From Lachnospiraceae bacterium (GTDB taxonomy: Bacteria > Bacillota > Clostridia > Lachnospirales > Lachnospiraceae), in assembly GCA_017521605.1 (NCBI GenBank), contig JAFXCD010000023.1, positions 1-64,000 of the forward strand: a stretch of 64,000 bases of DNA. Direction: 5' to 3'. The notes under the pieces were generated by a model. The model saw nothing but the letters and a program-made list of their open reading frames with translations. It was not told the DNA's origin and did not search any database. Below, piece after piece: positions 38,381-58,253 of the stretch. A program made the translations under genes and the position numbers. How positions within the stretch are numbered: position 1 is the first letter of the stretch; every line of letters begins with the position of its first letter.

Positions 38381-38427
38381 GTAAGACAAAAGGAATTTTG
38401 AATTCCCAAATGTACTGGAGGAAACGT

Positions 38428-39879: not shown

Positions 39880-39900
39880 AGATATAGTAAGGAGGCATAT

Positions 39901-41364: not shown

Positions 41365-41373
41365 GGAAGAAAT

Positions 41374-42952: not shown

Positions 42953-42972
42953 AGATACAAGGAGGTTAGGAT

Positions 42973-43752
42973 ATGAAGAACAGAAAGAAAATGTTGATTA
43001 TTATTCCGGCCTACAATGAAGAAAAAAATATTGGTGAATTGTTGGATAAGTTAAAGGCGCCATCCATTGCGGAAATAGCTGATGTGTTGATTATGGATGA
43101 TGCTTCTAAGGATAATACTCGGCGTATTGTTTTGGAAAAGGGTATGGAAGTGGTAACCCATGTATTTAATTTGGGGTATGGAAGTGGTTTGCAGGTAGGA
43201 TACAAATATGCCATACGGAATGATTATGACTATATCGTTCAAATGGATGCAGATGGTCAGCATGATGTGTGCAATATATTGAACATATATAATAAATTAA
43301 CAACACCGGATGTGAATGGAAAGTGTCCGGATATTGTATTGGGCTCCAGATTTTTGGAAGGCAGCCAGACATTTTCCATATCAAAAGTAAAAAAGATGGC
43401 TATTGGAATGTTTCGTTTTTTAATTAAGTGTGGAACAGGCCAAAAAATCAAGGATCCCACCACGGGATTACAGGGGTTAAGCAGAAGAGCCATTGATTTT
43501 TATGCCGGATATAATCAGTTTGATGATAAATATCCGGATGCAAATATGATTATGCAAATGATTTTGTTAGGTTACAGAGTAGTGGAGATTCCTGCTGTAA
43601 TGCATGCCAGGGTAGAAGGGGTTAGTATGCATTCGGGGTTGAAGCCCATTGTATATATGCTACGAATGATGTTTTCTATTATAGCAGTTTGGATTCGTAT
43701 CAGAGTGTATAAGGTTGATGTGGGGGCAGCAGATGAAAACACTGTTACATAG
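42973..43752 (+). CDS. GT2 glycosyltransferase, DPM-like
   Basis: A 259-residue GT-A enzyme: LIIIPAYNEEKNIGELL, MDDASKDNTR, QMDADGQHD (DxD metal site) and DPTTGLQGLSRRAI. The form is that of dolichyl/undecaprenyl-phosphate sugar synthases, which make a lipid-linked sugar. It could supply the GT-C-like protein at 34185 or the PMT at 61216. Ribosome site AAGGAGG. The next gene begins inside its 3' end. Confidence 0.88.
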   Translation: MKNRKKMLIIIPAYNEEKNIGELLDKLKAPSIAEIADVLIMDDASKDNTRRIVLEKGMEVVTHVFNLGYGSGLQVGYKYAIRNDYDYIVQMDADGQHDVCNILNIYNKLTTPDVNGKCPDIVLGSRFLEGSQTFSISKVKKMAIGMFRFLIKCGTGQKIKDPTTGLQGLSRRAIDFYAGYNQFDDKYPDANMIMQMILLGYRVVEIPAVMHARVEGVSMHSGLKPIVYMLRMMFSIIAVWIRIRVYKVDVGAADENTVT

Positions 43753-45046
43753 ATTCTTTTCAGAAAAAGAAGAGTGGATTTTACGGAAGGCAGATTTGAC
43801 AGAGACTATAAATAGCTTAGAAAATCCCTCCAGAGGCTGGTATCGGATATACACCTTTTTGGCAGAACAAATGCCGGATTTTCAACCTATGCTATGGTGC
43901 GATATTGAAGGTGATACATTAGTAATGGTGATTATCAATATTGGTGCATATAAGGAAAAAGAATTAGATGAAGCGGCTTTGGAAAATATTCGTACAATTT
44001 TACGTTTTTTTGTGAAAAAACATTATGAAATAGTACTAAGAATTACCTATGACCATGAAGGAAAGGCGTTGGAAAAGGAACCATTTTTCTTTTCAACAGT
44101 AAAAGAGCACTTTCTTCAACTGCTCCCCGTTATTAATGAGTATGCGGAGCATATTTTTGTATATCAGGGGATGTTGATTGGTAATTGGGGTGAGATGCAT
44201 ACTTCACGTTTTTTACAGCCTACAAAGCTGAAGGAATTGTGGAGTATTTTAAAAAGTAATCTGGATGACAGGATTTTTACCGCAGTTCGAAGACCTGCCT
44301 GCTGGCGTATGCTACACATGAATCATGAAACAGACAACATGGGATTGTTTGATGATGCTATATTTGGTTCAGAGAATCACCTGGGAACGTTTGGAAATAT
44401 GCCCAGAGATTCTGTGAGCTGGGATTCATTGTGGTGCAAAACAGATGAATTGAGATTTGAGGATGAATTGTGTCAAAGGGTGCCTAATGGTGGAGAAGCT
44501 ATTTGCGGGGAACAGTATTTAGCAGTGGAGAATCCTGGCAGTACAGTGGAAACTTTGAAAAGGATGCATATTACATATTTAAACAAAGAATATGATAAAA
44601 AGCTTTTAGGGATTTGGAAAGAGTGGAAGTGGGAAGGAACGGGAGTATGGCAGGGGTGCAGCCTATATGATTATATAGGAAATCATTTAGGATATCGTTT
44701 CCTGGTGAGAGATGTGGAGATTGTTGCTACTGATAAAAATGTAAAGGAATTAAAACTGGAAATTATAGTGGAAAATGTTGGATTTGCTTATTTTTATGAT
44801 GATGCAGAAGTGGTTTTAGAGCAAGTGAATGAACATGGAGATAGAAAAGAAAGAGTAGTTAGCTTAAGTAATCTTAATTGGAATGGAGGTAGTATTGAAA
44901 GATATACTATAGATATTTCAATGGAGAAAAGCAGTTTATATGTATTTATGAGACGAAAAAGGGATATGAGAATTTTGTATTTCGCTAATCACATGAAAGC
45001 AGACGGAAAAGTTTGGTTGGGAGAAATAGTTCATAGTGAAGTCTGA
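43733..45046 (+). CDS. DUF4832/DUF4874-like protein, possible glycoside hydrolase
   Basis: A 437-residue protein. Residues 1-300 have the pattern of DUF4874/DUF4832 proteins: ENPSRGWYRIYTF, VLRITYDHEG, then VINEYAEHIFVYQGM and GNWGEMHTSRF, with acidic residues at strand ends as in a TIM-barrel glycoside hydrolase. The final 110 residues look like a beta-sandwich. There is no signal peptide, so it may act in the cytoplasm on glycan precursors or be exported by another route. ATG at 43733 is preferred; in-frame ATG 43718 and TTG 43715 are alternatives. It overlaps the GT2 gene by 20 bases. Confidence 0.7.
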   Translation: MKTLLHRFFSEKEEWILRKADLTETINSLENPSRGWYRIYTFLAEQMPDFQPMLWCDIEGDTLVMVIINIGAYKEKELDEAALENIRTILRFFVKKHYEIVLRITYDHEGKALEKEPFFFSTVKEHFLQLLPVINEYAEHIFVYQGMLIGNWGEMHTSRFLQPTKLKELWSILKSNLDDRIFTAVRRPACWRMLHMNHETDNMGLFDDAIFGSENHLGTFGNMPRDSVSWDSLWCKTDELRFEDELCQRVPNGGEAICGEQYLAVENPGSTVETLKRMHITYLNKEYDKKLLGIWKEWKWEGTGVWQGCSLYDYIGNHLGYRFLVRDVEIVATDKNVKELKLEIIVENVGFAYFYDDAEVVLEQVNEHGDRKERVVSLSNLNWNGGSIERYTIDISMEKSSLYVFMRRKRDMRILYFANHMKADGKVWLGEIVHSEV

Positions 45047-45062
45047 GAAATGAGGAACCGTT

Positions 45063-46067
45063 ATGGTGGTAAAGAAAAATCAATATATTGATTTGTTAAA
45101 GGGAATATCATGCATAATTGTGATTTGCTTGCATTGTCCATTTCCGGGGGTGGTCGGAGATGGCATTATATATGGGTTGCGATTTTCAGTCCCCGTTTTT
45201 TTTATGATATCAGGATATTTCAGTTATAGTAAGAGTGAGGACTGGATAATTGATAAGGCCAGATATATTTTGAAGTTGTTGATATTTACAGAATTGTTTT
45301 ATTGTATTTGGAGATTTATTCAGGGTTGTTTATTTGAAGGTAATACAGTACATCAAATTTTGAAAGAGAATGTTATTAATAAGAACTTAATTCAGGTGTT
45401 ATTTTGTGGGACTTTATTTAATGGTACCCTGTGGTATTTATATGCAATGTTTTGGACCTGGATAATTATATGGTTTTTTCGAAAGAGAAACCTGTTAAAC
45501 AAGATGTTTTTTTTAGTTCCTTTATTGCTGATTATACAGATATTCGGAAGATATTATGTACAGAATAATTATGATATTAACAGGCTTGTAATATTATTTA
45601 GAAATGCGATTACCTTTGGGTTACCCTTTACTATGTTGGGAATATGGATTGCAAAGAATAAAGAAGAACTTCTGCAGAAAATAAGTGTGCCATGTAATTT
45701 GTGTATGGTTTTAGTTGGATTTCTGCTAATTGTGGTAGAATTTTTTGTGGTTGGACAATATATGGATACACATATTAGTACAGTTATTATTGTAGTTGGC
45801 TTGTTTTTATACGCTGTCAGGCAGAATAAAGAAGTGAGTAAATATTTGAAAGTATTTATAAGAATAGGTTCTGTTTGGTATGTATGGATTTATCTGTTAC
45901 ATATTTTTGTGATGGAGGTATTGAAGGTACTATATAGAGTGCTTCAGATAGAAGATAACATACTTGGGCAATATGTATTTCCGATTCTGGTATGTATAGT
46001 TAGTTGCATAATTGCTGAGTTAATAATAAGATTAATTAATTATTTTAACAGTAACGGGAGAAAATGA
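45063..46067 (+). CDS. Acyltransferase 3 family membrane protein
   Basis: A 334-residue protein with about 10 transmembrane helices. It begins with NQYIDLLKGISCIIVICLH, containing the family's early His, and then RFSVPVFFMISGYF. These enzymes O-acetylate or otherwise acylate sugars during or after export. It ends with ATGA shared with the next gene (4-base overlap). Confidence 0.88.
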   Translation: MVVKKNQYIDLLKGISCIIVICLHCPFPGVVGDGIIYGLRFSVPVFFMISGYFSYSKSEDWIIDKARYILKLLIFTELFYCIWRFIQGCLFEGNTVHQILKENVINKNLIQVLFCGTLFNGTLWYLYAMFWTWIIIWFFRKRNLLNKMFFLVPLLLIIQIFGRYYVQNNYDINRLVILFRNAITFGLPFTMLGIWIAKNKEELLQKISVPCNLCMVLVGFLLIVVEFFVVGQYMDTHISTVIIVVGLFLYAVRQNKEVSKYLKVFIRIGSVWYVWIYLLHIFVMEVLKVLYRVLQIEDNILGQYVFPILVCIVSCIIAELIIRLINYFNSNGRK

Positions 46068-47152
46068 TGGTCAAAATTTGTTTCTTTTCCGGGGATATAA
46101 CTAGAAGTGGTGGCACGGAAAGAGTTTCCACTATGATAGCAAATGAATTGGCAAGGCAGGGACAATTTGAAGTCTGCTTTTTGAGTCTTTGTGAGCAAAA
46201 GGATAGCCCCTTTTTTTACATAGATGATAATATAAAACAGTATAAATTAGGGGAGCGGTGGATACAACCCGGACTGGCATATTTACCTATCATTCCTAAG
46301 TTACGTAGATTTCTAAAGGAAAAGGCGATAGATATCATTATTGATATTGATATAGTTTTGGATTGTTTATCCATACCGGCTTCAAGGGGACTAAAGATAA
46401 AGGTTGTTTCCTGGGAACATTTTAACTGTGATTATGAGTTAACAGTTTCATATCGCAGATTTATTTTAAAGAATATTACAAAGCGTGCTGACTATATCAT
46501 TACACTAACAGAAGGGGACAAAGTCCGATATGGTCAGGTAATTGGTTGTGCCGAGAAAATAGAAGCGATATACAATCCTATGAAAGAAAGAATTGTTTCA
46601 TATGAAGGTGAAAAGAAAAAGTGGATTGTAACAGCAGTGAGATTGGTTTATGATAAAGGGATTGATTATTTGACAGAGATAGCTTCCAAGGTATTATTAA
46701 GATATCCTGATTGGAAATGGTTTGTATTGGGTGAGGGAGATGAGAGAAAAAAATTAGAAGCCTGTATTCAAGAGTATGGATTAGAGGGTAGGCTGGTAGT
46801 TCCGGGATTGGTAGATTGTGTGGATGAGTATTTAAGTAAAGCAAAGTTGTTTGTATTGACATCGCGAGTGGAAGGACTACCAATGTGTTTACTTGAAGCG
46901 AAGACTTATAAGCTCCCGTGTATCAGTTTTAATATACCAACCGGTCCGGATGAAATAATAGAAGACGAAATAAGTGGATATTTGGTGGAACCGTTTGATT
47001 GTGAAAAGATGATAAACAGAATCAGTGAACTTGTGGAAAACGAGGTACTGTTAAGCTCTTTTGCTGATAGAACCAAGAATAATATATATAAGTTTCAGAT
47101 GACTAGTATCATGGAAAAGTGGAACAGGGTGTTAAAGGGTCTATGCGAATAA
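46064..47152 (+). CDS. GT4 glycosyltransferase
   Basis: A 362-residue GT-B enzyme. It opens with ICFFSGDITRSGGTERVST, has ISWEH-like VVSWEHFNCDYE in the middle, and VTAVRLVYDKGIDYL, VLGEGDERKKLE and TSRVEGLPMCLLEAKTYKLPCISFNIPTGPDEII in the donor domain. The ending GPDEII resembles family members such as TagE/amylovoran-type transferases. It overlaps the acyltransferase by 4 bases and the flippase by 10 bases. Confidence 0.9.
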   Translation: MMVKICFFSGDITRSGGTERVSTMIANELARQGQFEVCFLSLCEQKDSPFFYIDDNIKQYKLGERWIQPGLAYLPIIPKLRRFLKEKAIDIIIDIDIVLDCLSIPASRGLKIKVVSWEHFNCDYELTVSYRRFILKNITKRADYIITLTEGDKVRYGQVIGCAEKIEAIYNPMKERIVSYEGEKKKWIVTAVRLVYDKGIDYLTEIASKVLLRYPDWKWFVLGEGDERKKLEACIQEYGLEGRLVVPGLVDCVDEYLSKAKLFVLTSRVEGLPMCLLEAKTYKLPCISFNIPTGPDEIIEDEISGYLVEPFDCEKMINRISELVENEVLLSSFADRTKNNIYKFQMTSIMEKWNRVLKGLCE

Positions 47153-48675
47153 AAAATGCTTTTCGAAATAGCTTCTTTAGTGTTATTTCGCAGATATTAT
47201 TAATAATAGTGGGGTTCGTCAGTCAGAGAGTATTAAATCTGAGAATGGGTGAAGAACTGGTAGGTATGAACAGTGTTATATCCAATATTATAGCGCTGCT
47301 ATCTGTTACGGAGTTGGGTATCTCAACAGCGGTGGTTTTTCATTTGTATGGTTATCTGGCGGCTAAGGATGAAGAAAGAATAGCGTCCATAATGAATTTG
47401 TACCGGAAGGCTTATAGTATATTTGCTATTGTTATTTCTCTTTTGGGCTTATGCATTATGCCTTATGTACATTTGTTTTTGAAAGAAAACAGCTTTTCTT
47501 TGGATTATATCAGATTAGTATATATTTTGTGGCTAATTCGAACGGTATGTTCTTATCTGCTTTCCTATAAAAGGTCGGTGTTAATTGCAGACCAACGGGA
47601 ATACGTTATAACAATTGGGGTATTGATTGCCAGTACAATGAATTATCTTGCCATAATCATAATTGTGGAATTTTGGCAAAATTATGTGTTGGCATTGTCT
47701 TTGAATATTGTGATAGAGATTGTTTTAAATCTGTTGATAGCAAGGTATGTGAACAAAAAATATGCCTTTTTGAAGAAAATGCAAAAGGCTCCGTTACAAA
47801 AGGAGATTGTAGATAAGGTTGTATCAGATGTAAAAAATATTTTTGTTTCACGATTATCACTAAAACTATTAGTGTCAACAGATAGTTTGATTATTTCCGG
47901 TTTCATTAGTGTGGGAATAGTAGGATTATATGCCAACTATTGTATGATAACTCAGTCAGTGTCCAATATTTTGCTGACGTTATCCGGAACGCTTCAACCG
48001 ATAGTCGGGAATATGTTTGTAGAGAAAGATCATGAAAAAGATTATGGAGTGCTTAGACAGATTACTTTTATTTTCTTTTGGTTAGCCTCTTTTTGCAGTT
48101 GCGGTTTATTTGCACTAATGACTCCTTTTGTAACGGATATTTGGTTAGGCACCGAATATAGACTGGATACTACCATTATTTTGTGGTGTGTAATCAACTT
48201 TTTTGCCCAGACCATAAGCTTACCATTAAGTATGATGCTGGGTGTTACGGGTATGTTTCAGAAGGAAAAGAAAATATCTGTTTTGGCGGCAGTTACAAAT
48301 TTGGTGATTTCCTTGAGCTTGGTAATACCGCTGGGAATTATTGGTGTACTAATAGGAACTTTTTTTTCTCATTTGTTGCAAATAGCATGTCGAATGAAAG
48401 TACTTATTTGTGAATATATATGCAAAGAGTTAAAACAGTATTTAATGGAGATAATTCAATATATTGCGTTAACAGGTATCGAACTGGGTTTGGTTTACAG
48501 CATTGGTACACAAATGCTCCATAATGGCGGTTGGATATATTTTGTAAAAATGATTTTGGTATGTCTGTTGATACCTAATGCAATCAATCTGCTTATTTAT
48601 TGCAGGAGCTGGCGTTTTCGTAGTATTCTGAATATGGGTCTGGAGTTTATAGGAAAGCCTAAACATCGAACTTAG
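47143..48675 (+). CDS. Wzx-type polysaccharide flippase
   Basis: A 510-residue protein with about 12-14 transmembrane helices of the polysaccharide transport family. The start is RIKNAFRNSFFSVISQILLIIVGF, with RMGEELVGMNSVISNIIALLSVTELGI following. It should move a lipid-linked repeat unit across the membrane, implying a second glycan pathway besides the PelG channel. ATG 47143 lies within the previous gene's end and has AAAGGG before it; an upstream ATG at 47119 is inside that gene. Its 3' end overlaps the convergent minus-strand gene by 17 bases. Confidence 0.88.
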   Translation: MRIKNAFRNSFFSVISQILLIIVGFVSQRVLNLRMGEELVGMNSVISNIIALLSVTELGISTAVVFHLYGYLAAKDEERIASIMNLYRKAYSIFAIVISLLGLCIMPYVHLFLKENSFSLDYIRLVYILWLIRTVCSYLLSYKRSVLIADQREYVITIGVLIASTMNYLAIIIIVEFWQNYVLALSLNIVIEIVLNLLIARYVNKKYAFLKKMQKAPLQKEIVDKVVSDVKNIFVSRLSLKLLVSTDSLIISGFISVGIVGLYANYCMITQSVSNILLTLSGTLQPIVGNMFVEKDHEKDYGVLRQITFIFFWLASFCSCGLFALMTPFVTDIWLGTEYRLDTTIILWCVINFFAQTISLPLSMMLGVTGMFQKEKKISVLAAVTNLVISLSLVIPLGIIGVLIGTFFSHLLQIACRMKVLICEYICKELKQYLMEIIQYIALTGIELGLVYSIGTQMLHNGGWIYFVKMILVCLLIPNAINLLIYCRSWRFRSILNMGLEFIGKPKHRT

Positions 48676-49588
48676 TCAGCCAGTGGTAGAAATCATAGCA
48701 TTGCAGAAGTTCTTTATCATAAGACTTAAAAGGTTTTCCCAAAAATTCCTTTATGATAGGAATAAGGGAGTCATCTATGGTTTCGGGTAGTATTAAAATA
48801 TTATTGGGATGGTAGAAGTCATAGTTTTTGATGTCCTGATTGTTGGTAATCAGTTTTTTGGACATAAAAACGGATTCTAAGACCCGCATAGTAAGAGCTT
48901 GCTGCCCGTTTTGTACAATATCCAACAGCAGACCGCAATGTTTAAGTTCCTTTAAGTATTCCTCATAGGAAAGACTGTGAGAGGTTAGGATATCAGAAAA
49001 TTCCTTTCGGTAGTTGCTATCAGTGTTTTTGGATAAAATACGGATATCACAATCTAGTCCGCTTTGTGTGAGAAGGTCGTTTAAACGTTTAATGAGTGGT
49101 GCCCGGTTTTTGTCAGCACCTAAAAAGAACAATTGATTATTGTACTGTTCAGAGTAGGTCTGAGCATATTCTATTGGATAAAATATATGATTGTATTTCA
49201 GGTTATAGAACCGGCAATCTCCTGGGTCAGTGGAATATATAGTCGATTTATCAGAAAATATGGTGTGGTTTTTATGTGCAGCATCAGCTTTGTTCCACAT
49301 GAACAGAAAAACCTTACAGTCAGGATTCTTTTTGTGGATGTATTGCTCCATGCCACGTTGATATCCATAATCGAAGATAATTACCCTTTTGGCAGTGGGA
49401 ATATATTTTTTCCACCCCCCCCAGAAATAAGAGCAAAGGGGAATACGACATAGATATAGTAGCTTATAAATGATATAGGACAAACTTCTTTCCGATATAT
49501 CATAGGGTTTAAAGGTGATTGCGCTATAATGAGGAAAGAAGTATAAATCCGGTTTTTGAAAGATTAATATAGTCTCTTTGTCTGACAT
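48659..49588 (-). CDS. CgeB-like putative glycosyltransferase with a G8 tract
   Basis: A 309-residue protein, predicted cytoplasmic. It lacks GT4 signatures but has the outline of CgeB/LPS-biosynthesis type transferases: LFFLGADKNRAPLIKRL (about residue 155-170), LLDIVQNGQQALTMRVLESVFMSKKLIT (about 230-257), then NNILILPE. It is the only minus-strand gene inside the polysaccharide locus. ATG at 49588 has GGAGG just upstream; ATG at 49600 lies before that site. Eight consecutive G (coding strand; 49415-49422) encode Trp-Gly-Gly-Trp around residue 56. Loss or gain of one G leads to an early stop, so the gene could be phase-variable. Confidence 0.75.
   Translation of the reverse strand: MSDKETILIFQKPDLYFFPHYSAITFKPYDISERSLSYIIYKLLYLCRIPLCSYFWGGWKKYIPTAKRVIIFDYGYQRGMEQYIHKKNPDCKVFLFMWNKADAAHKNHTIFSDKSTIYSTDPGDCRFYNLKYNHIFYPIEYAQTYSEQYNNQLFFLGADKNRAPLIKRLNDLLTQSGLDCDIRILSKNTDSNYRKEFSDILTSHSLSYEEYLKELKHCGLLLDIVQNGQQALTMRVLESVFMSKKLITNNQDIKNYDFYHPNNILILPETIDDSLIPIIKEFLGKPFKSYDKELLQCYDFYHWLTKFDV
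49415..49422 (-). repeat. G8 homopolymer inside the minus-strand glycosyltransferase
   Basis: C8 on the plus strand, G8 in the coding sense. By hand translation, losing one G gives a stop at 49381-49383, and gaining one G gives a TGA about 32 codons downstream (near 49320). Confidence 0.75.
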
Positions 49589-49696
49589 AACTGCCTCCAT
49601 TTAACTCATACAGGGAACATTTGGTTCAAGGTTTTTATGATTGGTTATAGTGTAACAAAGAAAAATAAAAGAAGCAATAAGGAGTTTGGTATTGAA

Positions 49697-50701
49697 ATGA
49701 AAGGAAAAGTAAGTATTATTGTACCGGTATACAAAGCAGAAGCCTATCTTTCAAGATGCTTGGACAGTATTTTAAACCAGACTTATACCAATATTGAAGT
49801 TATTTTAATTAATGATGGTTCACCGGACAAATCAGGAATGATTTGCGATGAATATGCTCAAAAGGATAGTCGAATAAAAGTTATTCATCAGGAAAATAAA
49901 GGAGTGTCCAGTGCCAGAAATGCCGGTTTGAAGATAGCTGGGGGAGAATATATAGGATTTGTAGATTCGGATGATTTTATAGCACCGGAAATGTATGAGC
50001 AGATGGTACAAAGTTTGAAAAGCGATAGAGATTTGATAATATGTGGGTGTCACCGTTGCAATTCTGATGGGATGAAGCAGATAAAAAAAGCAAAAGCACT
50101 TACATATTACGAATTGCAATGCCCGGAAGAAGCATTGCCAAGTGTGATATATCAACAAGTAACTATGGCTGTATGGAGTAAACTGTTCAGGCGCAATAGG
50201 ATTTTATCAGAAACCGGAGAAGTTGAAATTTTTTTTGACGAAAGCCTGAATAATCACGAGGATTTTATTTTTATTTGTGAATACATTTGTAGATGCAAAG
50301 GAAGGATTTACTTATTACCGGAACGTTTGTATTATTATTGTGACCAAAAAGGTAGTTTATCTAATAGTGAAAAGTCTTTTGATAAAATATTGGAAAGCTT
50401 GTCAGCAATTCTGGAATTACAACAGAAATACGATATTGACGAGCTTAAAAGTACAGAACTCTTTTATGTAGAGAACATTTGGAAATATTGGGTTGTAAAG
50501 GTAATGCAAGGACAGGAGTACAAAAAACCAGAGGATTTTAAAGAGCATGAGAAAATCAAAGATGAAATAAAGAAATACGTAAATGTTTATAATGCTTCAA
50601 AATATGTACGAAAATATAAGAAAGTAATTGTTCATATGTTATTAACACATGAACGGATATTATTTTTTGCTACAAGGTTGGCCGGCAAATTATATAAATA
50701 A
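49697..50701 (+). CDS. GT2 glycosyltransferase
   Basis: A 334-residue GT-A enzyme: VSIIVPVYKAEAYLSRCLDS, INDGSPDKSG, GVSSARNAGLKIAGGEYIGF and VDSDDF (DxD site). A C-terminal region of about 120 residues follows, ending in a basic, hydrophobic stretch. ATG 49697 lies after AAGGAG, and the upstream ATG 49637 has no site. It follows the divergent minus-strand gene and starts a second plus-strand run of the polysaccharide locus. Confidence 0.88.
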   Translation: MKGKVSIIVPVYKAEAYLSRCLDSILNQTYTNIEVILINDGSPDKSGMICDEYAQKDSRIKVIHQENKGVSSARNAGLKIAGGEYIGFVDSDDFIAPEMYEQMVQSLKSDRDLIICGCHRCNSDGMKQIKKAKALTYYELQCPEEALPSVIYQQVTMAVWSKLFRRNRILSETGEVEIFFDESLNNHEDFIFICEYICRCKGRIYLLPERLYYYCDQKGSLSNSEKSFDKILESLSAILELQQKYDIDELKSTELFYVENIWKYWVVKVMQGQEYKKPEDFKEHEKIKDEIKKYVNVYNASKYVRKYKKVIVHMLLTHERILFFATRLAGKLYK

Positions 50702-50720
50702 AACAGGAGAAGATGAAAAG

Positions 50721-51608
50721 ATGAATATTGCAGTTTCGGTTAACAATAAATTTGTTATGCCTTTGAAAGTAATGTTGTTTTCATTAGCCCAAAATACGGA
50801 GCGGGATTTAGTTATATATTTGTTGTATTGTGATTTGGATGAGAATAAAAGAATAGAGATTGAAAAATTTGTACAACAATACTGTCATGGAGTAGTTAGG
50901 AGTATATTAGTCGAACAAGGTATATTCCGGGAACATGATGCTTCTAAGTCAATGTATTCCATAGAGGCATTTTACAGGTTGTTAATTCCTTACATATTAC
51001 CAAATGATGTAGAACGTGTATTATGGTTGGATGCAGACATGGTAGTATATGATGAGATTGATGAGTTTTATGATTCCCAATTTGGAACGTCTGGAGAAGC
51101 TATGCTTGTAGCATGCTGGAATGAGAAAGACAAAGTAAGAATCCCGGAGTATAAGGAAAGGTTAGGGATAAAAACAGATTATTATTTTAACAGTGGTGTT
51201 ATCTTGTTTAATATTCCACAAATAAGGAAGCACATTTCAAAAGAAGAAATAAATGACTTTTGGATAAAAAACCAAAAGATATTGTATTATCCGGATCAAG
51301 ATATACTAAATTGTTTAATGGGAGAGAAGACTGTCTATAAATCAGCAACAGAGTATAATAATCTGAGTCATTTGGAAGAGAATGGGGAAAGAGAATTATT
51401 ACAGGCCAAAATAATACATTATGCATTTTTTATGAAACCCTGGCTTCTGTATTATGAAGGAAAATGCGAGAAGCCCTTTTGGAATTATGCAAAACAATGT
51501 GGTTATAAAATGCATTATATTTTCTATTGTATAATGCATAAACCAACCCTGTTTGTATATAAAATTTATAAGCGAGTTCGATATGGCGAGAAAATAAAAA
51601 AGAGTTAA
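50721..51608 (+). CDS. GT8 glycosyltransferase
   Basis: A 295-residue retaining glycosyltransferase of the LgtC/GspA type. It has NIAVSVNNKFVMPLKVMLFSL, the DxD motif in WLDADMVVYDEID, YFNSGVILFN, and PDQDILN. Family members add galactose or glucose to surface glycans. ATG 50721 follows AGGAGA; an in-frame TTG at 50649 lies inside the preceding gene. Confidence 0.88.
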   Translation: MNIAVSVNNKFVMPLKVMLFSLAQNTERDLVIYLLYCDLDENKRIEIEKFVQQYCHGVVRSILVEQGIFREHDASKSMYSIEAFYRLLIPYILPNDVERVLWLDADMVVYDEIDEFYDSQFGTSGEAMLVACWNEKDKVRIPEYKERLGIKTDYYFNSGVILFNIPQIRKHISKEEINDFWIKNQKILYYPDQDILNCLMGEKTVYKSATEYNNLSHLEENGERELLQAKIIHYAFFMKPWLLYYEGKCEKPFWNYAKQCGYKMHYIFYCIMHKPTLFVYKIYKRVRYGEKIKKS

Positions 51609-51653
51609 TAAAGATAATCGGATTAGTATGCTAATATTAACAAAGGGAGAAAC

Positions 51654-52733
51654 ATGAAAACAAAAATTACAGTAAGTATTATCATTCCTGTTTACAAAAC
51701 AGAAACTTATCTGGCAGAATGTATGAATAGTGTTTTGCAACAGGATTATTCTTATATAGAGATTATTCTGGTGGATGATGGGTCTCCGGATAATTGCCCA
51801 AGATTATGTGATGAATACGCACAGAAGTATGAAAAAGTGAAGGTAATACATCAGACCAATCGGGGATTGGGATTATCACGTAACTCTGGTTTGCAGGTGG
51901 CAACAGGTAAATACATATTTTTCCTGGATTCGGATGATTGTTTGGATGGACAAGGAGTGGTTACAACACTGGTAAAATGTGCGGAGGAAAAGAATGCTGA
52001 TATTGTTACCGGAAGCTTCCGCAGATTTAATGAAAAGAGTGTTAGCGAACCAAATGCACATCATTTAGAGGACGGGCCGGTTACAGAAACGGTTGGTTTT
52101 CGATTCAAAGGCTTTTATATGTATGGGCATTTGGCATATAATTGGGGAAAGTTATATAGAAAAGCCTTTTTGGAAGAGAATGAACTTTATTGCAAGGCCT
52201 ACCCTTTTACGCAGGATAAGGCCCACAATATGGCTTGTTGTGCATATAAGCCTAAATATGCTTTTGTGGATGAGAGTGTGTATTTATACAGGGTCAATGA
52301 GGAATCTGTAACATTTAAGTACAAAGCCAATTTTATGCCTGTATGGATTTCAATAGCGGAGGATTTTGAGACATTTCTGAAGGAACGGAATATAAAAGAA
52401 GATTATTATGATTTGATGTATTTTCACATTTTCTTTGGAAGCTTTTTTCTTGCCAAGCAGGAACTGCAATTTAAAGAAAAGAGAATTCGGGAAGCAGCAA
52501 AGGCGTTAAAGGAATATGGTAAGAATCCTTTTGTAAAGAAAAGTATGAAAGCATTGGCTAAGGGTAAGTATTTGAAGGAGATTGAAGCACTGTCATGGAA
52601 GATAGTAATTAGGGGAGCTTCATTATTGTTTACCATGCGTGGTTATTGGCCAATGGCATTAGGAATTGCACTGCTTAGAAAGATGGAAGTAGATAGTAAA
52701 ATTACGAAATCCAGATATAAGAAGGAGAAATAA
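51654..52733 (+). CDS. GT2 glycosyltransferase
   Basis: A 359-residue GT-A enzyme: VSIIIPVYKTETYLAECMNS, LVDDGSPDNCPRLCDEYA, GLGLSRNSGLQVATGKYIFF, LDSDDC. The C-terminal 130 residues are basic and may contact the membrane. It resembles the GT2 at 49697 in its first 110 residues, so they could be old duplicates. The nucleotidyltransferase gene begins 5 bases after its stop. Confidence 0.88.
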   Translation: MKTKITVSIIIPVYKTETYLAECMNSVLQQDYSYIEIILVDDGSPDNCPRLCDEYAQKYEKVKVIHQTNRGLGLSRNSGLQVATGKYIFFLDSDDCLDGQGVVTTLVKCAEEKNADIVTGSFRRFNEKSVSEPNAHHLEDGPVTETVGFRFKGFYMYGHLAYNWGKLYRKAFLEENELYCKAYPFTQDKAHNMACCAYKPKYAFVDESVYLYRVNEESVTFKYKANFMPVWISIAEDFETFLKERNIKEDYYDLMYFHIFFGSFFLAKQELQFKEKRIREAAKALKEYGKNPFVKKSMKALAKGKYLKEIEALSWKIVIRGASLLFTMRGYWPMALGIALLRKMEVDSKITKSRYKKEK

Positions 52734-52738
52734 TCAGC

Positions 52739-53929
52739 GTGAAGGATATGTTTTCAAGAGAAGAGATAGAGCTGATAAATGTCTTAAGAGTTGCTATAAG
52801 TAATGTATCAAATCAAAAAGAGATGTCGATTGAAAATATAAACAGCGCAAATCTGATAAGTATGGCAAGAAGACATGCTGTTTTATCATTGATATATGAT
52901 GTATTGTGTGAGAATCAACTCTTTTTAGATAAACAACCCTATATAGAACAGGAAACAAGAAAAATTGTACTACAATCCTATCGTTTACTGTTTCTGACCC
53001 GATATGTGGTAGAATTATTAGCGAAACACCATATTGAGACAGTTGTTCTAAAGGGAGTAGCAACGGCAGGCTTTTATTCAGTGCCTGAATTGCGTAAATC
53101 GGGAGATATAGATTTATTGTTACCGAATACAGTAGATGAAAAACAGATTACAGAGATTATGAAAGAGGCCGGCTTCCGGATATCAAAAAACCAACATTCA
53201 AATCATCATATGGTTTATGTATCTGCAGAGGGGATTTCCATTGAACTTCATAGTATGCTGGCAGAACCGTTTGCGTATAAGAAGATCAATAAGGCTATGG
53301 AAAGACAGATGGAAAGGTGTGCTGTACATATACAAAAAGCAGAAATTATGGGGCTGGAACTGCCTGTTTTGGATAAGCCATATCATGCATATGAGTTGTT
53401 GTTACATATGTTGCAGCATTTCATGTATGCGGGTTTTGGTTTAAAGTTATTATGTGACTGGGTAATGATTTGGAAGCAAGACTGGTTAAAGGAAGAGCGT
53501 GAGCAGTTCACCATGTTAACAAAAGAATGCGGTTTAGAGAAGTTTGCAGAAATGCTTTCTGCAGTTTGCATGAAATATTTCGGAATGCCGAAAGATACGT
53601 TTGCATGGAAGGTTAAATGTGATGAGAATACGGATCTATTATTGAGGGAGATTTTAGATTCGGAGGAGTTTGGCAATTCAGATAACAATCGCATGGTGAT
53701 GATGAATGGCACAGGGCTGATGGCTTATATTAAGGAGTTTCATCATCAGATGAGGTTGAATTTTCAAAAGGCAGGGAAGTGCTTTTTGTTATGGCCGGTG
53801 CTATGGGGAGTGACATTGGTAAGGTTTTTGAGAAATAATAAGAGAGTGCGTAATACATCAACGGGTGGTGTATTAAAAGAGGCTAGAAGAAGAAGTGAAC
53901 TGATGAAGGAACTGCGTATTTTTCAGTAG
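52739..53929 (+). CDS. NTP_transf_5-type nucleotidyltransferase
   Basis: A 396-residue protein. The key region VVLKGVATAGFYSVPELRKS-GDIDLLL has the family's LKG and G-D-x-D catalytic block (G122-D123-I124-D125). Such nucleotidyltransferases occur in kinase-containing lasso peptide loci (for example paeninodin-type), where the kinase and this enzyme modify the peptide end, and in polysaccharide loci. Here it sits 5 bases after a GT2 gene, 187 bases before the leader-bearing gene and 2.5 kb from the PqqD-HprK-like kinase. GTG at 52739 with AAGGAG upstream is preferred over ATG 52748. Confidence 0.82.
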   Translation: MKDMFSREEIELINVLRVAISNVSNQKEMSIENINSANLISMARRHAVLSLIYDVLCENQLFLDKQPYIEQETRKIVLQSYRLLFLTRYVVELLAKHHIETVVLKGVATAGFYSVPELRKSGDIDLLLPNTVDEKQITEIMKEAGFRISKNQHSNHHMVYVSAEGISIELHSMLAEPFAYKKINKAMERQMERCAVHIQKAEIMGLELPVLDKPYHAYELLLHMLQHFMYAGFGLKLLCDWVMIWKQDWLKEEREQFTMLTKECGLEKFAEMLSAVCMKYFGMPKDTFAWKVKCDENTDLLLREILDSEEFGNSDNNRMVMMNGTGLMAYIKEFHHQMRLNFQKAGKCFLLWPVLWGVTLVRFLRNNKRVRNTSTGGVLKEARRRSELMKELRIFQ

Positions 53930-54044
53930 TGTTGTGCTAAGAAAATGATATCTGATGTATTGATATAAAATGTACAATGAAGAAAGCTGGAAAAATGTTT
54001 TTAGTAATATTTTTTACAAAAATAACAATAATGTGACGAATCAG

Positions 54045-54073
54045 TTTACAAAAGTGTAAAAATATGGTATGTT
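54045..54073 (+). promoter_or_regulatory. Promoter of the leader-bearing gene
   Basis: TTTACA (54045-54050) and TATGTT (54068-54073) with exactly 17 bases between. It is 43 bases before a start codon with a near-perfect ribosome site (AGGGAGG, 54102-54108). Confidence 0.65.
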
Positions 54074-54116
54074 ATTTATGTAAAAGAGTAAGTTTTGCTA
54101 TAGGGAGGCAAGTATA

Positions 54117-54587
54117 ATGAAAAAGTATGAGAAACCGGTTGTAATGATAAACGAAGAGTTGGCTGAAGGTGTATACGCAGCGAGCGGAATGATGACGGGA
54201 CCTACCGGAACACAGGATTGTTGGTCTTTTGATGTATATCCTGTTCAGGATTGGAATGGTTCACATAGAGTATTTGAAATCAAATTAAGACATCATACCG
54301 GGTTGGAGCATATATCAGATGCTTCTAATGTTAGTGTCACATTTGACAGAGACTTAACAGATGCATATACAGAGTTTGGTGGTGTTTTTGACGGAAGTAG
54401 AACAGTATCTGTATCAAGAGTGCTGTTGGCAGACGCATATAAGGATGGAGATTGGGTTACATATAAGATATGGGCTCAGGCTAGTGATGAGGCAACGACA
54501 AGAACTGTTGGTGTAAGTAATGTGACAGTAACATGTGATAAATCACTTAATGTTCAAGGTGGCGGAGCAAGTGAGATAAATCCATAA
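54117..54587 (+). CDS. Leader-bearing small protein, putative RiPP-like substrate
   Basis: A 156-residue protein. Residues 1-24 look like a leader peptide: charged start KKYEKPVV, acidic NEELAEG, then VYAASG, after which a Gly/Thr/Pro-rich stretch (MMTGPTGTQD) begins. There is no hydrophobic core, so it is not a Sec signal. Residues 35-145 form a beta-rich domain with only two cysteines (C35 and C140) near its ends, which could pair, and the C-terminus is NVQGGGASEINP. It has its own strong promoter and ribosome site and is followed by a terminator hairpin before the exporter gene, the usual way to make substrate in excess over its transporter. Neighbours are a nucleotidyltransferase, a PqqD-kinase fusion and an S26-type peptidase. 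Substrate role is inference; the whole domain might be the exported product. Confidence 0.75.
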   Translation: MKKYEKPVVMINEELAEGVYAASGMMTGPTGTQDCWSFDVYPVQDWNGSHRVFEIKLRHHTGLEHISDASNVSVTFDRDLTDAYTEFGGVFDGSRTVSVSRVLLADAYKDGDWVTYKIWAQASDEATTRTVGVSNVTVTCDKSLNVQGGGASEINP

Positions 54588-54596
54588 GGTAAATAA

Positions 54597-54628
54597 AACA
54601 GCATCATCATTTTGATGATGCTGTTTTT
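54597..54628 (+). terminator. Terminator/attenuator between substrate and exporter genes
   Basis: ACAGCATCATCA (54598-54609) pairs with TGATGATGCTGT (54613-54624), 3-base loop, then TTTTG. It lies 20 bases before the ABC gene start, so downstream expression depends on read-through or on a promoter not seen. Confidence 0.85.
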
Positions 54629-54648
54629 GTGTATGAGGTTGTGGTTAT

Positions 54649-56409
54649 ATGATACATAAGTTAGTGAAAAGAATGCATTTAGTGAATCCTGAAAGGTTGC
54701 AAGAAAGATTTAAGCAGATAAAGTGGATTTATTACTATGCAAAAAAATATTGGATGTCCATGATCCTTTATACTTTAATTGGCATGGCAGGGACTGTTAT
54801 ATCCCTTGTGAGTAGTTGGATTTCAAAAGATTTAGTTGATATTATTACAGGATATGAAACCGGTCGCTTGGTAACTACGTTTTGTATGATGATAGGCATA
54901 AATATTGGAACCGGCTTAATGAGTCAAATTTCCAATTATGTATCCAGTAAGATTAGCATGAAAGTAGATGCAGATGTTAAAGCAGATATTTTTTCTAAAA
55001 TTTTGATCACGGATTGGGAATCACTCAGTAATTATCATACAGGTGATCTGTTGACGCGATGGAGTTCTGATGTTGGTACAATTTCCAGTGGAATATTAAG
55101 TTTTGCTCCGAATTTGATTATATATGTATTTAGATTTGTTTCGGCTTTTGCTATGGTTATATATTATGATGCCACTTTTGCTATATTTGCATTTATAAGT
55201 ATGCCTGTTAGTTTGCTGTTATCAAGAACACTTACAAAACGTATGACCAATAATAATCAGAGAAGTGCTGCAATGGGGGCGAAAATGACGGGATATAATC
55301 AAGAAGCGTTTTCAAACCTTCAGACTATAAAAGCATTTGATTTGGTAGGTCTGTATATAAATAGATTGAAAGAGATTCAAAAAGAGTATATAGATATGCG
55401 TTTGGAATTTCAGAGAATGTCTATAGGAACTTCGCTGTTACTGAGTACAATAGGCCTTTTGGTTTCATATGCCTCTTATGGTTGGGGGATTTATAGAGTA
55501 TGGAGCGGAGCAATAAGTTATGGAACAATGACCATGTTTTTGGGGCTTTCGGGTACATTGACAGGAACAATTAACGGGTTGACTTCATTAATTCCTACAA
55601 CTATTAGGCTTGCTACTTCTGCCGGTCGTCTTATGGATATCGTAGAGATGCCCCGCGAGGATTACAGTAACGATGAATTGGTAAAATCTTTCTATGAAAA
55701 TAATAAAAATCAAGGTATCAGCTTGAAGATGTTTGATGTAAATTACTCTTATAAGACTGGAACAGAAGTTTTTGCCGGTGCGTCATTAGAGGTTAATCCT
55801 CATGAAATTATTGCTTTGGTGGGACCTTCCGGAGAAGGCAAGACGACCATGCTTCGTTTGATCTTGTCGCTTATGCAGACACAGAACGGTACGGCTTATT
55901 TAACAGGCGGAGAAGAGTCTGTTCCGCTTACACCTTCCACTCGTAAACTGTTTTCCTACGTACCACAGGGAAACACCATGTTTTCCGGTACTATCGCTGA
56001 GAATATGCGTAATGTAAATCCGGAAGCTACGGATGAGGATATTATAGAGGCCTTAAAAGGTGCTTGTGCATGGGAGTTTGTGGAGAAATTGCCCGCGGGT
56101 ATTAATAGTGAAATAAAGGAGCGTGGAGGAGGATTTTCTGAAGGACAGGCTCAACGTTTGTCCATTGCCAGAGCATTGCTTAGAGATGCACCTATTTTAC
56201 TTTTGGATGAAGCAACTTCTGCATTGGATGTTGCTACGGAGAGAAGAGTGTTGCGTAATATCATGCAGGATGAGAAACCACGTACCTGTATTGTAACAAC
56301 TCACAGACCTACGGTACTAAGTGTATGTACCAGAGTTTACGCAATTCGTGATAAGAAGTGTGTAGTGTTAAACGAAAAAGAAATTGATGAGATGGTAAGA
56401 GGATTTTAA
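54649..56409 (+). CDS. ABC exporter without peptidase domain, RiPP-like cassette
   Basis: A 586-residue membrane-ATPase fusion. The membrane domain spans about residues 35-330. The ATPase has Walker A GPSGEGKTT (392-400), a signature reading FSEGQAQR instead of LSGGQ, Walker B ILLLDEATSALD and TTHRPTV. It starts directly with the membrane region, so there is no C39 leader peptidase domain. It is the likely exporter of the leader-bearing protein encoded 62 bases upstream. The altered signature SEGQ is also common in RiPP-cluster exporters of this type. Confidence 0.88.
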   Translation: MIHKLVKRMHLVNPERLQERFKQIKWIYYYAKKYWMSMILYTLIGMAGTVISLVSSWISKDLVDIITGYETGRLVTTFCMMIGINIGTGLMSQISNYVSSKISMKVDADVKADIFSKILITDWESLSNYHTGDLLTRWSSDVGTISSGILSFAPNLIIYVFRFVSAFAMVIYYDATFAIFAFISMPVSLLLSRTLTKRMTNNNQRSAAMGAKMTGYNQEAFSNLQTIKAFDLVGLYINRLKEIQKEYIDMRLEFQRMSIGTSLLLSTIGLLVSYASYGWGIYRVWSGAISYGTMTMFLGLSGTLTGTINGLTSLIPTTIRLATSAGRLMDIVEMPREDYSNDELVKSFYENNKNQGISLKMFDVNYSYKTGTEVFAGASLEVNPHEIIALVGPSGEGKTTMLRLILSLMQTQNGTAYLTGGEESVPLTPSTRKLFSYVPQGNTMFSGTIAENMRNVNPEATDEDIIEALKGACAWEFVEKLPAGINSEIKERGGGFSEGQAQRLSIARALLRDAPILLLDEATSALDVATERRVLRNIMQDEKPRTCIVTTHRPTVLSVCTRVYAIRDKKCVVLNEKEIDEMVRGF

Positions 56410-56417
56410 GATAAAAG

Positions 56418-56449
56418 AGAAGTCCGGTATTTAGTCTCCGGACTTCTTT
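56418..56449. terminator. Bidirectional terminator between ABC and kinase genes
   Basis: AGAAGTCCGG (56418-56427) pairs with CCGGACTTCT (56438-56447), 10-base loop. T runs follow on both strands. It overlaps the last codons of the minus-strand kinase gene. Confidence 0.85.
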
Positions 56450-57597
56450 AATTTATCAAGATAACAATCAATATATTTCTTCATAACTTCTGAGGCAGTA
56501 GGTTCCTTCGTACAATGGAGCTTGCATACCATAATCTTTGAAACAATATCTTTCACAATTTTCATGTTTCGATCAAACAAATCTGTCGTCCAAGCAGGAG
56601 AAATCAAGCGTTGGCTTACAAGTAGCTGTTTCTTATCTTCCGGAAGTTTTTCAATTCTATCAGAAGAGGCCTGATTGAGGAGGATGATACCACCTAAAGC
56701 TACCGTCACGGTGGTACAGATTTCAGAGGTACCGCACCAGGGAATTCCGTGTACTACAGGTTGACCGTTTTCAAAGGCTAACAGATTCAAATCCCCATTT
56801 AAAAGAGTAATTTTATAAAGTTTTTTCCATAGGTTGGTATGGGTGGATTTGCCCATACCGGAATGTCCGGAAAACAGCCACGCTTTTTCTTTGTAGAGCA
56901 GAGAGGCAGAATGGAGTGCTACCATGCCCTTCTTTTGTGACAGGTAAAGGTAAGTAAGGCGCAGTGCGTGAAAAATATCATAATGAAAATCCTCGTCATA
57001 AGGGGGCAGACAGTAACACAGAACCTTGGAACCATCAAAGCTTAAATGTATTTCCACAATATGTTTGGCCTGTGGAAAAAGTAGGATATAGCCTTCGGAG
57101 TTTTCCAGTACCATTAATTCATCATTACGAATTAGTAAAGAACCATTTTGACGAGCTGGTGGAAAGCCCGGTTGGAATAATACTTCCTGGTGTATAGCTT
57201 CGCAGCCGGCAGCTTCAAAAGGACAAAACTCCTGTGGAAATGCCTGGGCAGGTCCCAGTAGCTTCACACCTAATCCGGCAATGGAAAGGGTTACGGAATG
57301 AAGGTTTGTATTAACATAGGGTTCATCGATTACAATACCATAAGAGATCAGTTGTTTTACAAACTGGCGGATGTCATTTTGAAATTCTGTCAAATCCTCT
57401 GAGGGAATCTCGTAATATTCCGCACTGCATCTGAATAGCTCCTCCATGGTGCACTCCTGCTCCAGCAATTTCCAAAGATAGGCACCGGTAGCATTGACCT
57501 GCACGCCATGTTTTCTGTCAGCCATCATTTGTCCATAAGGGAGCAGATAGGGGATGTTTGCGATTTCTCTTAATATGAAGCTTTTGTTTTGCCGCAT
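56431..57597 (-). CDS. PqqD domain fused to HprK-like kinase
   Basis: A 388-residue protein. Residues 1-92 are a PqqD-like (RRE) domain: NATGAYLWKLLEQECTMEEL and LISYGIVID. After a middle domain, residues 225-375 form an HPr-kinase/PEPCK-like nucleotide-binding domain with Walker A GHSGMGKST (244-252, K250) followed by HTNLW, and LNGDLNLL and HGIPWCGTSE. In lasso peptide clusters such kinases phosphorylate the peptide's last residue, and RRE domains grip the leader. Fusing both in one chain suggests a self-guided peptide kinase. It is transcribed convergently toward the exporter gene and divergently from the S26 peptidase. Start ATG 57597 behind AAGGAG. Confidence 0.82.
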   Translation of the reverse strand: MRQNKSFILREIANIPYLLPYGQMMADRKHGVQVNATGAYLWKLLEQECTMEELFRCSAEYYEIPSEDLTEFQNDIRQFVKQLISYGIVIDEPYVNTNLHSVTLSIAGLGVKLLGPAQAFPQEFCPFEAAGCEAIHQEVLFQPGFPPARQNGSLLIRNDELMVLENSEGYILLFPQAKHIVEIHLSFDGSKVLCYCLPPYDEDFHYDIFHALRLTYLYLSQKKGMVALHSASLLYKEKAWLFSGHSGMGKSTHTNLWKKLYKITLLNGDLNLLAFENGQPVVHGIPWCGTSEICTTVTVALGGIILLNQASSDRIEKLPEDKKQLLVSQRLISPAWTTDLFDRNMKIVKDIVSKIMVCKLHCTKEPTASEVMKKYIDCYLDKLKKSGD

Positions 57598-57729
57598 GGG
57601 ATTCTCCTTGATTTACTGTAATAGTTTTAGTAGGTAGAATAGACAGAAAGCCATAATTTCTATCACTTTATTTTCCAGTATATCATTTTATGGAAAAAAA
57701 GGCTACTGGAAGGATTATAAAATTGTCAG

Positions 57730-57758
57730 TTGAGATTGCATTACAAACTGTTTATAAT
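57730..57758 (+). promoter_or_regulatory. Promoter of the S26 peptidase-fruK-ptsI run
   Basis: TTGAGA (57730-57735) and a consensus TATAAT (57753-57758) with 17 bases between, 27 bases before the chosen start codon. Confidence 0.8.
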
Positions 57759-57785
57759 AGAAACTGTATAAGGAGAGGAGAGACT

Positions 57786-58253
57786 ATGGAAGATAACCGT
57801 CAGGATATAGAGCAACTCTTGGAACAGGGTAACAATATACAGATAAAGCCCCAGGGGTACAGTATGTATCCTGTATTAGTACCGGGACGGGATGAAGCGG
57901 TTGTAGAGCCTGTGGCAGAGAGAATACTTAAACGTGGAGATGTGGTATTGTATCGAAGAGTAGCAGAGAATACAGGGCATATTTTGGTACTTCATCGTAT
58001 CTGGAAGATAAAGCCGGAGGGGATATATCTGGTAGGAGATAATCAGAGGGAAATCGAAGGACCTCTTATGAGGAGTCAGATGAAGGGTATTATGGCTGGT
58101 ATATACCGTAAGGACAAGTACATATCTGTACGGAATCCATGGTATCGATTGTTTACCGGAGGATGGTTATTACTACGCCCCATACGGCCCATTGTAGCAG
58201 GCATTGCAGCACGAATAAAGGGAATATTTACTAAGAAAGAGGATAAAGACTAA
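57786..58253 (+). CDS. S24/S26-family peptidase, signal peptidase-like
   Basis: A 155-residue protein. The Ser block is KPQGYSMYPVL (S26), then LKRGDVVLYRR, and VLHRIWKIKPEGIYLVGDNQ with H70. The pairing of Ser with His in HRI rather than Lys is that of S26B (SipW/eukaryotic-type) signal peptidases. There is no N-terminal membrane helix; a hydrophobic stretch near the end (GGWLLLRPIRPIVAGIAARI) may attach it to the membrane. Such small peptidases recur beside PqqD-kinase genes, and it is the only protease near the leader-bearing protein, so it may cut after VYAASG (inference). ATG 57786 follows GGAGAGGAG; ATG 57690 would run through the promoter. Confidence 0.8.
   Translation: MEDNRQDIEQLLEQGNNIQIKPQGYSMYPVLVPGRDEAVVEPVAERILKRGDVVLYRRVAENTGHILVLHRIWKIKPEGIYLVGDNQREIEGPLMRSQMKGIMAGIYRKDKYISVRNPWYRLFTGGWLLLRPIRPIVAGIAARIKGIFTKKEDKD

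Follow-up and report, generated by a model that had tools for sequence, protein, structure and literature searches.

The closest described relatives of the system treated here are the linear polyphosphorylated peptides (LPPs) of Paenibacillus alginolyticus, the products of the lppAKBSDN genes (Nat Commun 2026, PMC13381572). The LPP genes encode a signal peptidase I (SpI)-like protease, a discrete RRE (the recognition element of ribosomally synthesized and post-translationally modified peptides, RiPPs), an HprK-like kinase, a nucleotidyltransferase and an MsbA-like exporter, and were initially encountered in capsule loci of Bacilli. Ser3 of the LPP core carries phosphates, up to four of which were seen, and the protease LppS cleaves after T-1, aided by the RRE (PMC13381572). 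In lasso peptides, the nucleotidyltransferase homologue PsmN installs hexoses on the phosphate, and the His-Lys-Asp-Asp residues of the kinases are all reported to be essential (PMC9266682). We analyzed a five-gene cassette in a 64,000-nucleotide stretch of a Lachnospiraceae bacterium genome (contig JAFXCD010000023.1; G000:C122:1-64000 in our numbering; hereafter the window), which encodes a nucleotidyltransferase, a precursor protein with a 24-residue leader, an MsbA-like exporter, a kinase fused to an RRE of the PqqD type and an S26 protease.

With a probability of about 0.57, the cassette belongs to the LPP-type RiPP machinery, as a Lachnospiraceae branch that has adapted to protein-sized cargo, a value that rests partly on four further fused-kinase loci without an S26 or nucleotidyltransferase gene. 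The system singled out in an earlier note, made from the sequence of the window, does not lie outside known classes: the class itself is not new, the gene set being that of the LPPs, and what is new is the RRE-kinase fusion, the different leader, the diverse cores, the occurrence of some leader proteins apart from a cassette, the loss of one Asp in the kinase clade and the continuation of a Pel-like exopolysaccharide operon by the cassette. The RiPP-like logic proposed in the same note, with a set of kinase, nucleotidyltransferase and exporter and no lasso cyclase, was borne out by the gene content. The cassette is conserved and, as far as the literature covered shows, has not been described as such. 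No paper on a fused RRE-kinase or on this leader was found in that literature (preprint servers and most subscription papers lay outside its coverage), the terms 'Clostridia' and 'Lachnospir' are absent from the main text of PMC13381572, and two plasmid searches for Bacilli LPP genes returned no Bacilli.

Conservation of the cassette in Lachnospiraceae

The cassette conserved in Lachnospiraceae consists of a leader protein, an MsbA-like exporter, a PqqD-kinase, an S26 protease and often a nucleotidyltransferase. Its distribution was followed with one profile of the leader (A2; five sequences, 24 residues) and one of the kinase (A3; 15 fused kinases). The leader profile matched 18 of 299 Lachnospiraceae genomes, the window's included, while the kinase profile matched 70 of them at E 1e-20 and 17 at E 1e-90. 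At the latter threshold the fused kinase is present in 16 of the 18 leader-positive genomes and in 1 of the 281 others (P-value = 2e-23, Fisher test), a co-occurrence that is partly circular because the kinase profile was built from loci found via the leader. The two leader-positive genomes lacking the fused kinase are a 68% complete one (G146) and one with an unfused relative beside a divergent precursor (G210, locus L056); in the single genome with the kinase alone (G096), a neighbouring protein keeps TAEGIYAGSG without YxxP.

The window's own genus provided a cleaner test, G000 and G022 being the only genomes of the 81 sampled that are known to have been used in profile building. Here 35 genomes have both leader and fused kinase (matches at E 1e-85 or better being counted as fused-type), 1 has the leader only (G779, in 330 contigs), 2 have the kinase only (G790 and G818) and 43 have neither (P-value = 2e-19, Fisher test, relatedness not corrected); the leader-negative G825 has a weak kinase match at 1e-24, and the leader match of G786 covers the second half only, without YxxP (L247). 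The earlier note had expected leader proteins to occur mainly together with the cassette genes, and so they do: the kinase accompanies the leader in 35 of the 36 genomes of the genus that have a leader, as in 16 of 18 of the family. In 34 of these genomes a single contig carries leader and kinase, no more than about 13 kb apart, whereas in G819 they are on different contigs. Because the two were searched separately and are linked in 34 of 35 genomes, the arrangement exceeds chance, and coincidental gene neighbourhood was rejected on both the co-occurrence and the linkage. Outside the family there was no convincing leader match: in the class sample 2 of 291 genomes gave strong matches, both in the window's genus (G000 and G022), and 3 of the other 289 gave weak ones, all with E above 1e-4; in the phylum sample the window itself was the only strong match among 199, and 3 of the other 198 were weak, again with E above 1e-4.

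The gene content of 15 fused-kinase loci was tabulated; these loci, all of which contain the leader by construction, were fetched around leader matches, and the fused kinase was found in 15 of 25 leader-centred loci. The exporter is present in all 15, the S26 gene in 14 and the NTP_transf_5 nucleotidyltransferase in 11; the locus without S26 (L041) lies near a contig start. Gene order places the cassette together with that of the LPPs: three clostridial loci with a discrete RRE (L124, L126 and L130) retain the published order kinase-RRE-S26-exporter-nucleotidyltransferase.

Leader, cargo and enzymes

The precursor gene (54117..54587, + strand) encodes 156 residues with no family above cut-off, a match of the core to Scramblase (E 0.028) lying below it. 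The leader, MKKYEKPVVMINEELAEGVYAASG, occupies 54117..54188 (+ strand), with the codon of Ser23 at 54183-54185, and follows the pattern YxxP-x9-E-G-V-[YF]-x-x-S-G. Across 28 aligned leaders Y4, P7, E17, S23 and G24 are invariant; V or I stands at position 19, and Y or F at position 20. The motif was found in 81 of 83 distinct leader proteins (the exact motif is absent from those of L243 and L244), and the spacing from the Tyr or Phe of YxxP to Ser is 19 residues in 77 of the 81 motif-bearing proteins and 20 in one, the remaining three lacking the first motif; this conservation is partly by construction, as the proteins were chosen with the leader profile. Three different leader proteins stand in tandem in one genome at L221 and likewise at L227. 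One leader protein (L002) has no cassette within its 16 kb, and its genome (G777) carries a fused kinase and another leader protein on a different contig. Since some leader proteins lie far from any cassette, the leader acts like a portable tag.

The 81 cores behind the leader are 57-148 residues long and fall into clusters of 26, 18, 12, 5, 3, 3, 2 and 2 members plus ten singletons (BLAST E 1e-10), that of the window belonging to the cluster of 18. The clustering depends on the cut-off, with eight clusters of at least two members at E 1e-10 and seven at E 1e-6, and the two largest are probably related because they merge at the latter value. All members of the five-member class match CBM_2, a carbohydrate-binding module (30.3, 26.4, 25.0, 22.6 and 19.9 bits against a cut-off of 24, thus above the Pfam cut-off in 3 of 5). 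When profiles of three core classes were compared with solved structures, the best E was 0.19. Phosphorylation of a C-terminal Ser, as in lasso peptides, was rejected, the last residue being Ser in only 3 of 81 cores. Each core of the 12-member class (e.g., L038:9866-10210, - strand, and L043:8736-9098, - strand) contains four or five Cys; the cysteines of GCxGC and CGL are conserved, and in most members PSWE or PGWE is preceded by a DNGKR-like stretch. The class gave no match to a solved structure, and the single member scanned gave no Pfam match. This class could bind metal or form disulfides.

The fused gene (56431..57597, - strand) lies between the exporter and protease genes, both on the + strand, and encodes 388 residues. 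Residues 28-89 (57331..57516, - strand) match the PqqD family PF05402 at E 4.7e-10 and a P-loop domain follows, which agrees with the RRE-kinase fusion described in the earlier note. The RRE is fused to the kinase in all 15 kinases of the profile, and an additional discrete PqqD is found in L042, L044 and L048, and by clustering also in L045. Compared with solved RREs, the fused-kinase profile matched TbiB1 (5v1u) at E 4.3e-5, LppB (9x8z) at E 9.5e-4 and PbaB1 (9x90) at E 1e-3. Residues N33, Y60, D70 and F74 of LppB contact the Tyr or Pro of YxxP (PMC13381572); with LppB numbering placed on the alignment by hand, they align with N35, Y62, D75 and F79, which are conserved in 13, 14, 14 and 13 of the 15 fused kinases. 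By sequence, the fused RRE would thus bind a YxxP leader as the LPP element does.

In the kinase part, H229, G247, G249, K250, T252, H253, N267-G268-D269, GxPWCGTS, C288 and C362 are invariant (15/15). Profile comparison with true HprK covered 41 columns around the His and the P-loop (probability 9%, E 0.0035), which is weak evidence for the label HprK-like. A tree built from 68 kinases groups all 15 fused kinases inside a clade of 29 tips (support 0.98), all of which have G before the Asp; four further N-G-D kinases stand elsewhere in the tree. The clade also holds the discrete-RRE Lachnospiraceae loci L118 and L119, a Butyrivibrio plasmid gene and loci with radical S-adenosylmethionine (SAM) enzymes. 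The unfused kinase of L056 (327 residues) belongs to a 16-sequence kinase set and is labelled as fused in the tree, and was excluded from the 15 of the profile.

All five open reading frames are intact where the earlier note had placed them; it is the start of the S26 gene that changes. Its frame opens at 57690, and an ATG at 57786 (residue 33 of the frame) is preceded by AAGGAGAGGAG, a strong ribosome-binding site, with no such site before 57690, so the gene probably starts at 57786 (57786..58253, + strand; 155 residues). The S26B-like assignment made earlier stands on weak family matches (archaeal signal peptidase I at E 2.2e-6 and the nickel superoxide dismutase protease at E 0.0017, both below cut-off) together with S58, H102, D117 and E123 (numbered from 57690), invariant in 15 of 15 aligned proteins; a search against solved structures led to LexA at E 0.05. 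LppS requires S29, H68 and D93 (PMC13381572), and the conserved residues point to a leader peptidase of the same SpI/S26-like Ser/His/Asp kind. The remaining two LPP-type components are both encoded in the window. The exporter gene (54649..56409, + strand; 586 residues) has the membrane (PF00664) and ATPase (PF00005) domains of an MsbA-like ATP-binding cassette (ABC) protein. No C39 peptidase, the mark of double-glycine leader exporters, was among the 23 families reported for it at E up to 1, and double-glycine/C39 export was rejected. The nucleotidyltransferase-like gene (52739..53929, + strand; 396 residues, LppN/PsmN type) matches PF14907 at E 1.5e-36, and the motifs LKG, GDxD and ExH are invariant in 12 aligned homologues. 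A simple hydropathy scan, insensitive enough to flag only three windows in the exporter, found no membrane span in the protease, kinase, nucleotidyltransferase or precursor and no hydrophobic signal-like stretch in the precursor.

Exopolysaccharide neighbourhood and proposed pathway

The link to exopolysaccharide drawn in the earlier note was confirmed, as a Pel-like operon (36533..52733, + strand apart from one frame at 48659-49600 on the - strand) lies directly upstream of the nucleotidyltransferase gene. It encodes DUF2194, a DUF3492 glycosyltransferase (E 4e-79), PelG (PF16933, E 8.1e-146), DUF4874/DUF4832, an acyltransferase, glycosyltransferases and a Polysacc_synt flippase-type protein (PF01943, E 4.7e-7, 30.0 bits against a cut-off of 28.2); DUF3492 we take to be a marker of PelF. 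The nucleotidyltransferase gene looks like a continuation of the operon, whose last glycosyltransferase gene ends 5 bases before it. Among the 15 tabulated loci the flippase-type cluster is present in 10 and the DUF4832 protein in at least 9, a lower bound because the window's locus ended at 46000 in that table, and an EAL/GGDEF protein adjoins L041. From the Pel-like operon, the EAL/GGDEF protein and the CBM2-like cargo we infer that the cargo consists of matrix or surface proteins. On the other side, genes for a 1-phosphofructokinase and a phosphotransferase system (PTS) enzyme I (58256-60828, + strand) follow the S26 gene after a gap of 2 bases and may be co-transcribed with it in the window; neither belongs to any cluster common to other loci.

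In the pathway that we propose, the YxxP of the leader would dock in the PqqD domain, as suggested by homology and the conserved pocket residues. The HprK-like domain would then add a group, most likely phosphate, near the end of the leader, with the invariant Ser23 as the best candidate acceptor. The nucleotidyltransferase homologue, where present, would extend the phosphate with a sugar or nucleotide, by analogy with its lasso-peptide relatives, and the S26 Ser/His protease would cut inside EGVYAASG, the RRE probably presenting the site as for LppS. Finally, the MsbA-like exporter would release the core, which, to go by locus context and CBM2-like cargo, would act in the Pel-like polysaccharide matrix. 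Ser23 may be the acceptor rather than a part of the leader, because its distance from the Tyr (19 residues) is nearly that in LPPs (18). A cut after V19 is possible if the leaders are aligned by distance from YxxP, as is one after A22, with Ser23 as the new N-terminus, if they are aligned on the P3 aromatic residue (LppA F-3); cuts after Y20 or G24 are possible too.

Several observations weigh against placing the cassette with the LPP machinery. Four further fused-kinase loci, reached from the kinase side (L115, L116, L117 and L253; 7.7-20 kb examined in each), are without S26 or NTP_transf_5. L115 has an exporter and a degenerate leader protein, L116 (a 7.7-kb contig) an exporter, and L253 an exporter and a leader protein; L117 is also without an exporter, has a discrete PqqD only, and belongs to a genome (G135) in which S26, exporter and leaders are found in L046, elsewhere on the same contig. 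The LPP leader consensus YxxPxVLxHQxIxFETxxS is not matched, clear agreement being limited to YxxP and a similarly spaced Ser and the HQxIxFET part being absent, and beside other clostridial kinases no more than 10 of 37 candidate precursors have Ser at +19 (a set taken without a Ser/Cys filter, with some likely spurious frames and one frame counted from two starts). The RRE resembles LppB no more than it resembles the B1 proteins of lasso peptides, and other residues of the LppB pocket differ, V35 aligning with T37 (Thr in 11/15). The acid of the S26 triad is uncertain, its spacing differing from that of LppS D93, and lppN deletion changed nothing detectable in the LPP study (PMC13381572). 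In all 15 fused kinases the motif reads N-G-D, compared with T-D-D in HprK and N-D-D in most clostridial relatives (34 of 51 wider-locus kinases with a readable P-loop). The first Asp of the His-Lys-Asp-Asp set is thus G268 in 15 of 15, the set being one defined on lasso kinases, so that the comparison does not cover LppK's own residues. Because one essential Asp is missing, the fused kinases may not be ordinary Ser kinases, which makes phosphorylation less certain than the earlier note had implied.

This substitution, within a clade whose 29 members all have G before D, also favours a different reading, in which the kinase-like part is no longer a protein kinase and serves as a leader-binding adaptor or ATP-driven chaperone that hands proteins over to the S26 protease and the ABC exporter, the whole being mainly a Sec-independent secretion route for matrix proteins. 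Widely differing cargo clusters are what an export tag would give, and the absence of a signal-like stretch from the precursor in the simple scan fits as well. We nevertheless regard an adaptor as rather unlikely, since the invariance of His229, the P-loop residues G247, G249, K250, T252 and H253, the second Asp and GxPWCGTS argues for retained catalysis, and the nucleotidyltransferase accompanies the kinase in 11 of 15 loci. Quite improbable, in our view, is an extension of the LPP-type reading in which the leader marks a range of different matrix proteins for covalent attachment to exopolysaccharide: the N-G-D enzyme would phosphorylate the Ser close to the end of the leader, the nucleotidyltransferase would make a sugar-phosphate linkage or primer, and the protease and ABC exporter would release a protein tethered N-terminally to the Pel-like polymer. 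If true, bacteria would possess an N-terminal phosphoglycan anchor that serves several proteins per cell in trans.

A reading in which the product acts as a soluble bacteriocin or signal, either peptide or protein, and the exopolysaccharide neighbourhood is incidental would agree with several divergent tandem precursors per genome and with a patchy presence within the genus (36 of 81), as in antagonistic systems; the distribution of LPPs is patchy too (PMC13381572). It is distinctly unlikely, however, as nothing immunity-like appeared among the ten recurrent neighbour clusters that were scanned (other clusters were not all annotated), the cargo includes CBM2-like domains and the flippase-type gene recurs in two thirds of the loci. 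The combination of kinase, nucleotidyltransferase, exporter and PqqD also occurs in paeninodin-type clusters (PMC13381572, PMC9266682), as would be expected of a degenerate kinase-type lasso cluster that had lost its cyclase and B2 protease. This origin is hardly credible for a cassette that recurs as such in many genomes and has cores of such length, and for the lasso leader peptidase PF13471 there is no match in G000, and only 2 of the 17 cassette genomes have one above cut-off. Neither cyclase nor B2 is among the cassette frames, the cyclase family not having been searched genome-wide, and a lasso cluster proper was rejected on the lack of a B2 match in G000.

Clostridial relatives and comparison with known systems

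Among the 37 candidate precursors beside other clostridial kinases, Cys stands at +19 or +20 in 11, each of which comes from a locus whose radical SAM enzyme bears FELTxxCNxxCxMC. Eight loci (L123, L129, L131, L132, L133, L162, L174 and L178) combine PqqD and a G-D kinase with radical SAM, and, in those that yielded a plausible precursor, it has Cys 19-20 residues past the Tyr (or Trp) of YxxP. A second radical SAM group (L125, L166, L171 and L177) has N-D-D kinases and small, often tandem precursors, whose leaders end in EERISGSC, EERMAGSIC, EERIASNC and similar. On plasmid pNP243 of Butyrivibrio fibrisolvens D1 (NZ_CP146964.1, L255), a kinase annotated as hypothetical protein, a PqqD and an S24/S26 peptidase lie beside pssD/pssE; the precursor of 57 residues has the leader EGVYAC, Cys at +19 and several Cys-Pro or Pro-Cys pairs, and no radical SAM gene is annotated within 16 kb.

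S-layer homology proteins (PF00395, E 7.3e-22 or better in 4/4) adjoin discrete-RRE cassettes in four clostridial loci (L127:8066-9676, L128:6430-8046, L130:7621-8778 and L134:11856-13505), another hint of the cell surface. A discrete PqqD adjoins a large protein (about 730 residues) with an N-terminal RmlD/epimerase domain in L039, L042, L045 and L117, and lies one frame away from it in L044. This protein was scanned against Pfam in L042 and L117 and assigned by clustering elsewhere, and is cut by the region end in L039; the pairing suggests a second RRE-guided step linked to sugar chemistry.

The LPP machinery was described only in 2026, and the cassette offers the hypothesis that it matures matrix proteins. 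It places similar machinery in Clostridia, where one invariant leader is carried by recurrent domain-like proteins, one kind with a CBM fold, beside a Pel-like operon. The fixed N-G-D and the Cys-bearing radical SAM relatives indicate that the kinase family has diversified and that universal Ser polyphosphorylation is not to be assumed, and leader-directed export of folded domains could double as a secretion tag.

Compared with nickel superoxide dismutase maturation protease and SipW-type signal peptidases, the protease shares the S26 family and Ser/His catalysis, whereas sequence matches are weak and the substrate is different. With kinase-type lasso peptides (paeninodin, pseudomycoidin) the cassette has in common the HprK-like kinase, the nucleotidyltransferase homologue, a PqqD RRE and the exporter; it differs in the absence of a macrolactam cyclase and B2 protease among its frames, in its large cores and in the lack of a conserved C-terminal Ser. 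The discrete-RRE cassettes of Clostridia (L124, L126, L130 and pNP243) are alike in kinase, PqqD, S26, YxxP and often exporter and nucleotidyltransferase, but have mostly short precursors, a discrete RRE and, in some, radical SAM enzymes with Cys in place of Ser. With the LPPs the cassette shares the machinery genes, a YxxP leader, a SpI/S26-like protease, guidance by an RRE, a position within or next to polysaccharide loci, and precursors with a conserved N-terminus and a variable C-terminus (35-200 residues in LPPs). It is unlike them in the fusion of RRE and kinase, in N-G-D instead of a double Asp, in the second half of the leader (EGV[YF]xxSG against HQxIxFETxxS), in its recurrent protein-sized cores, CBM2-like ones included, in leader proteins that also occur away from the cassette, and in its setting in Lachnospiraceae at a Pel-like locus.

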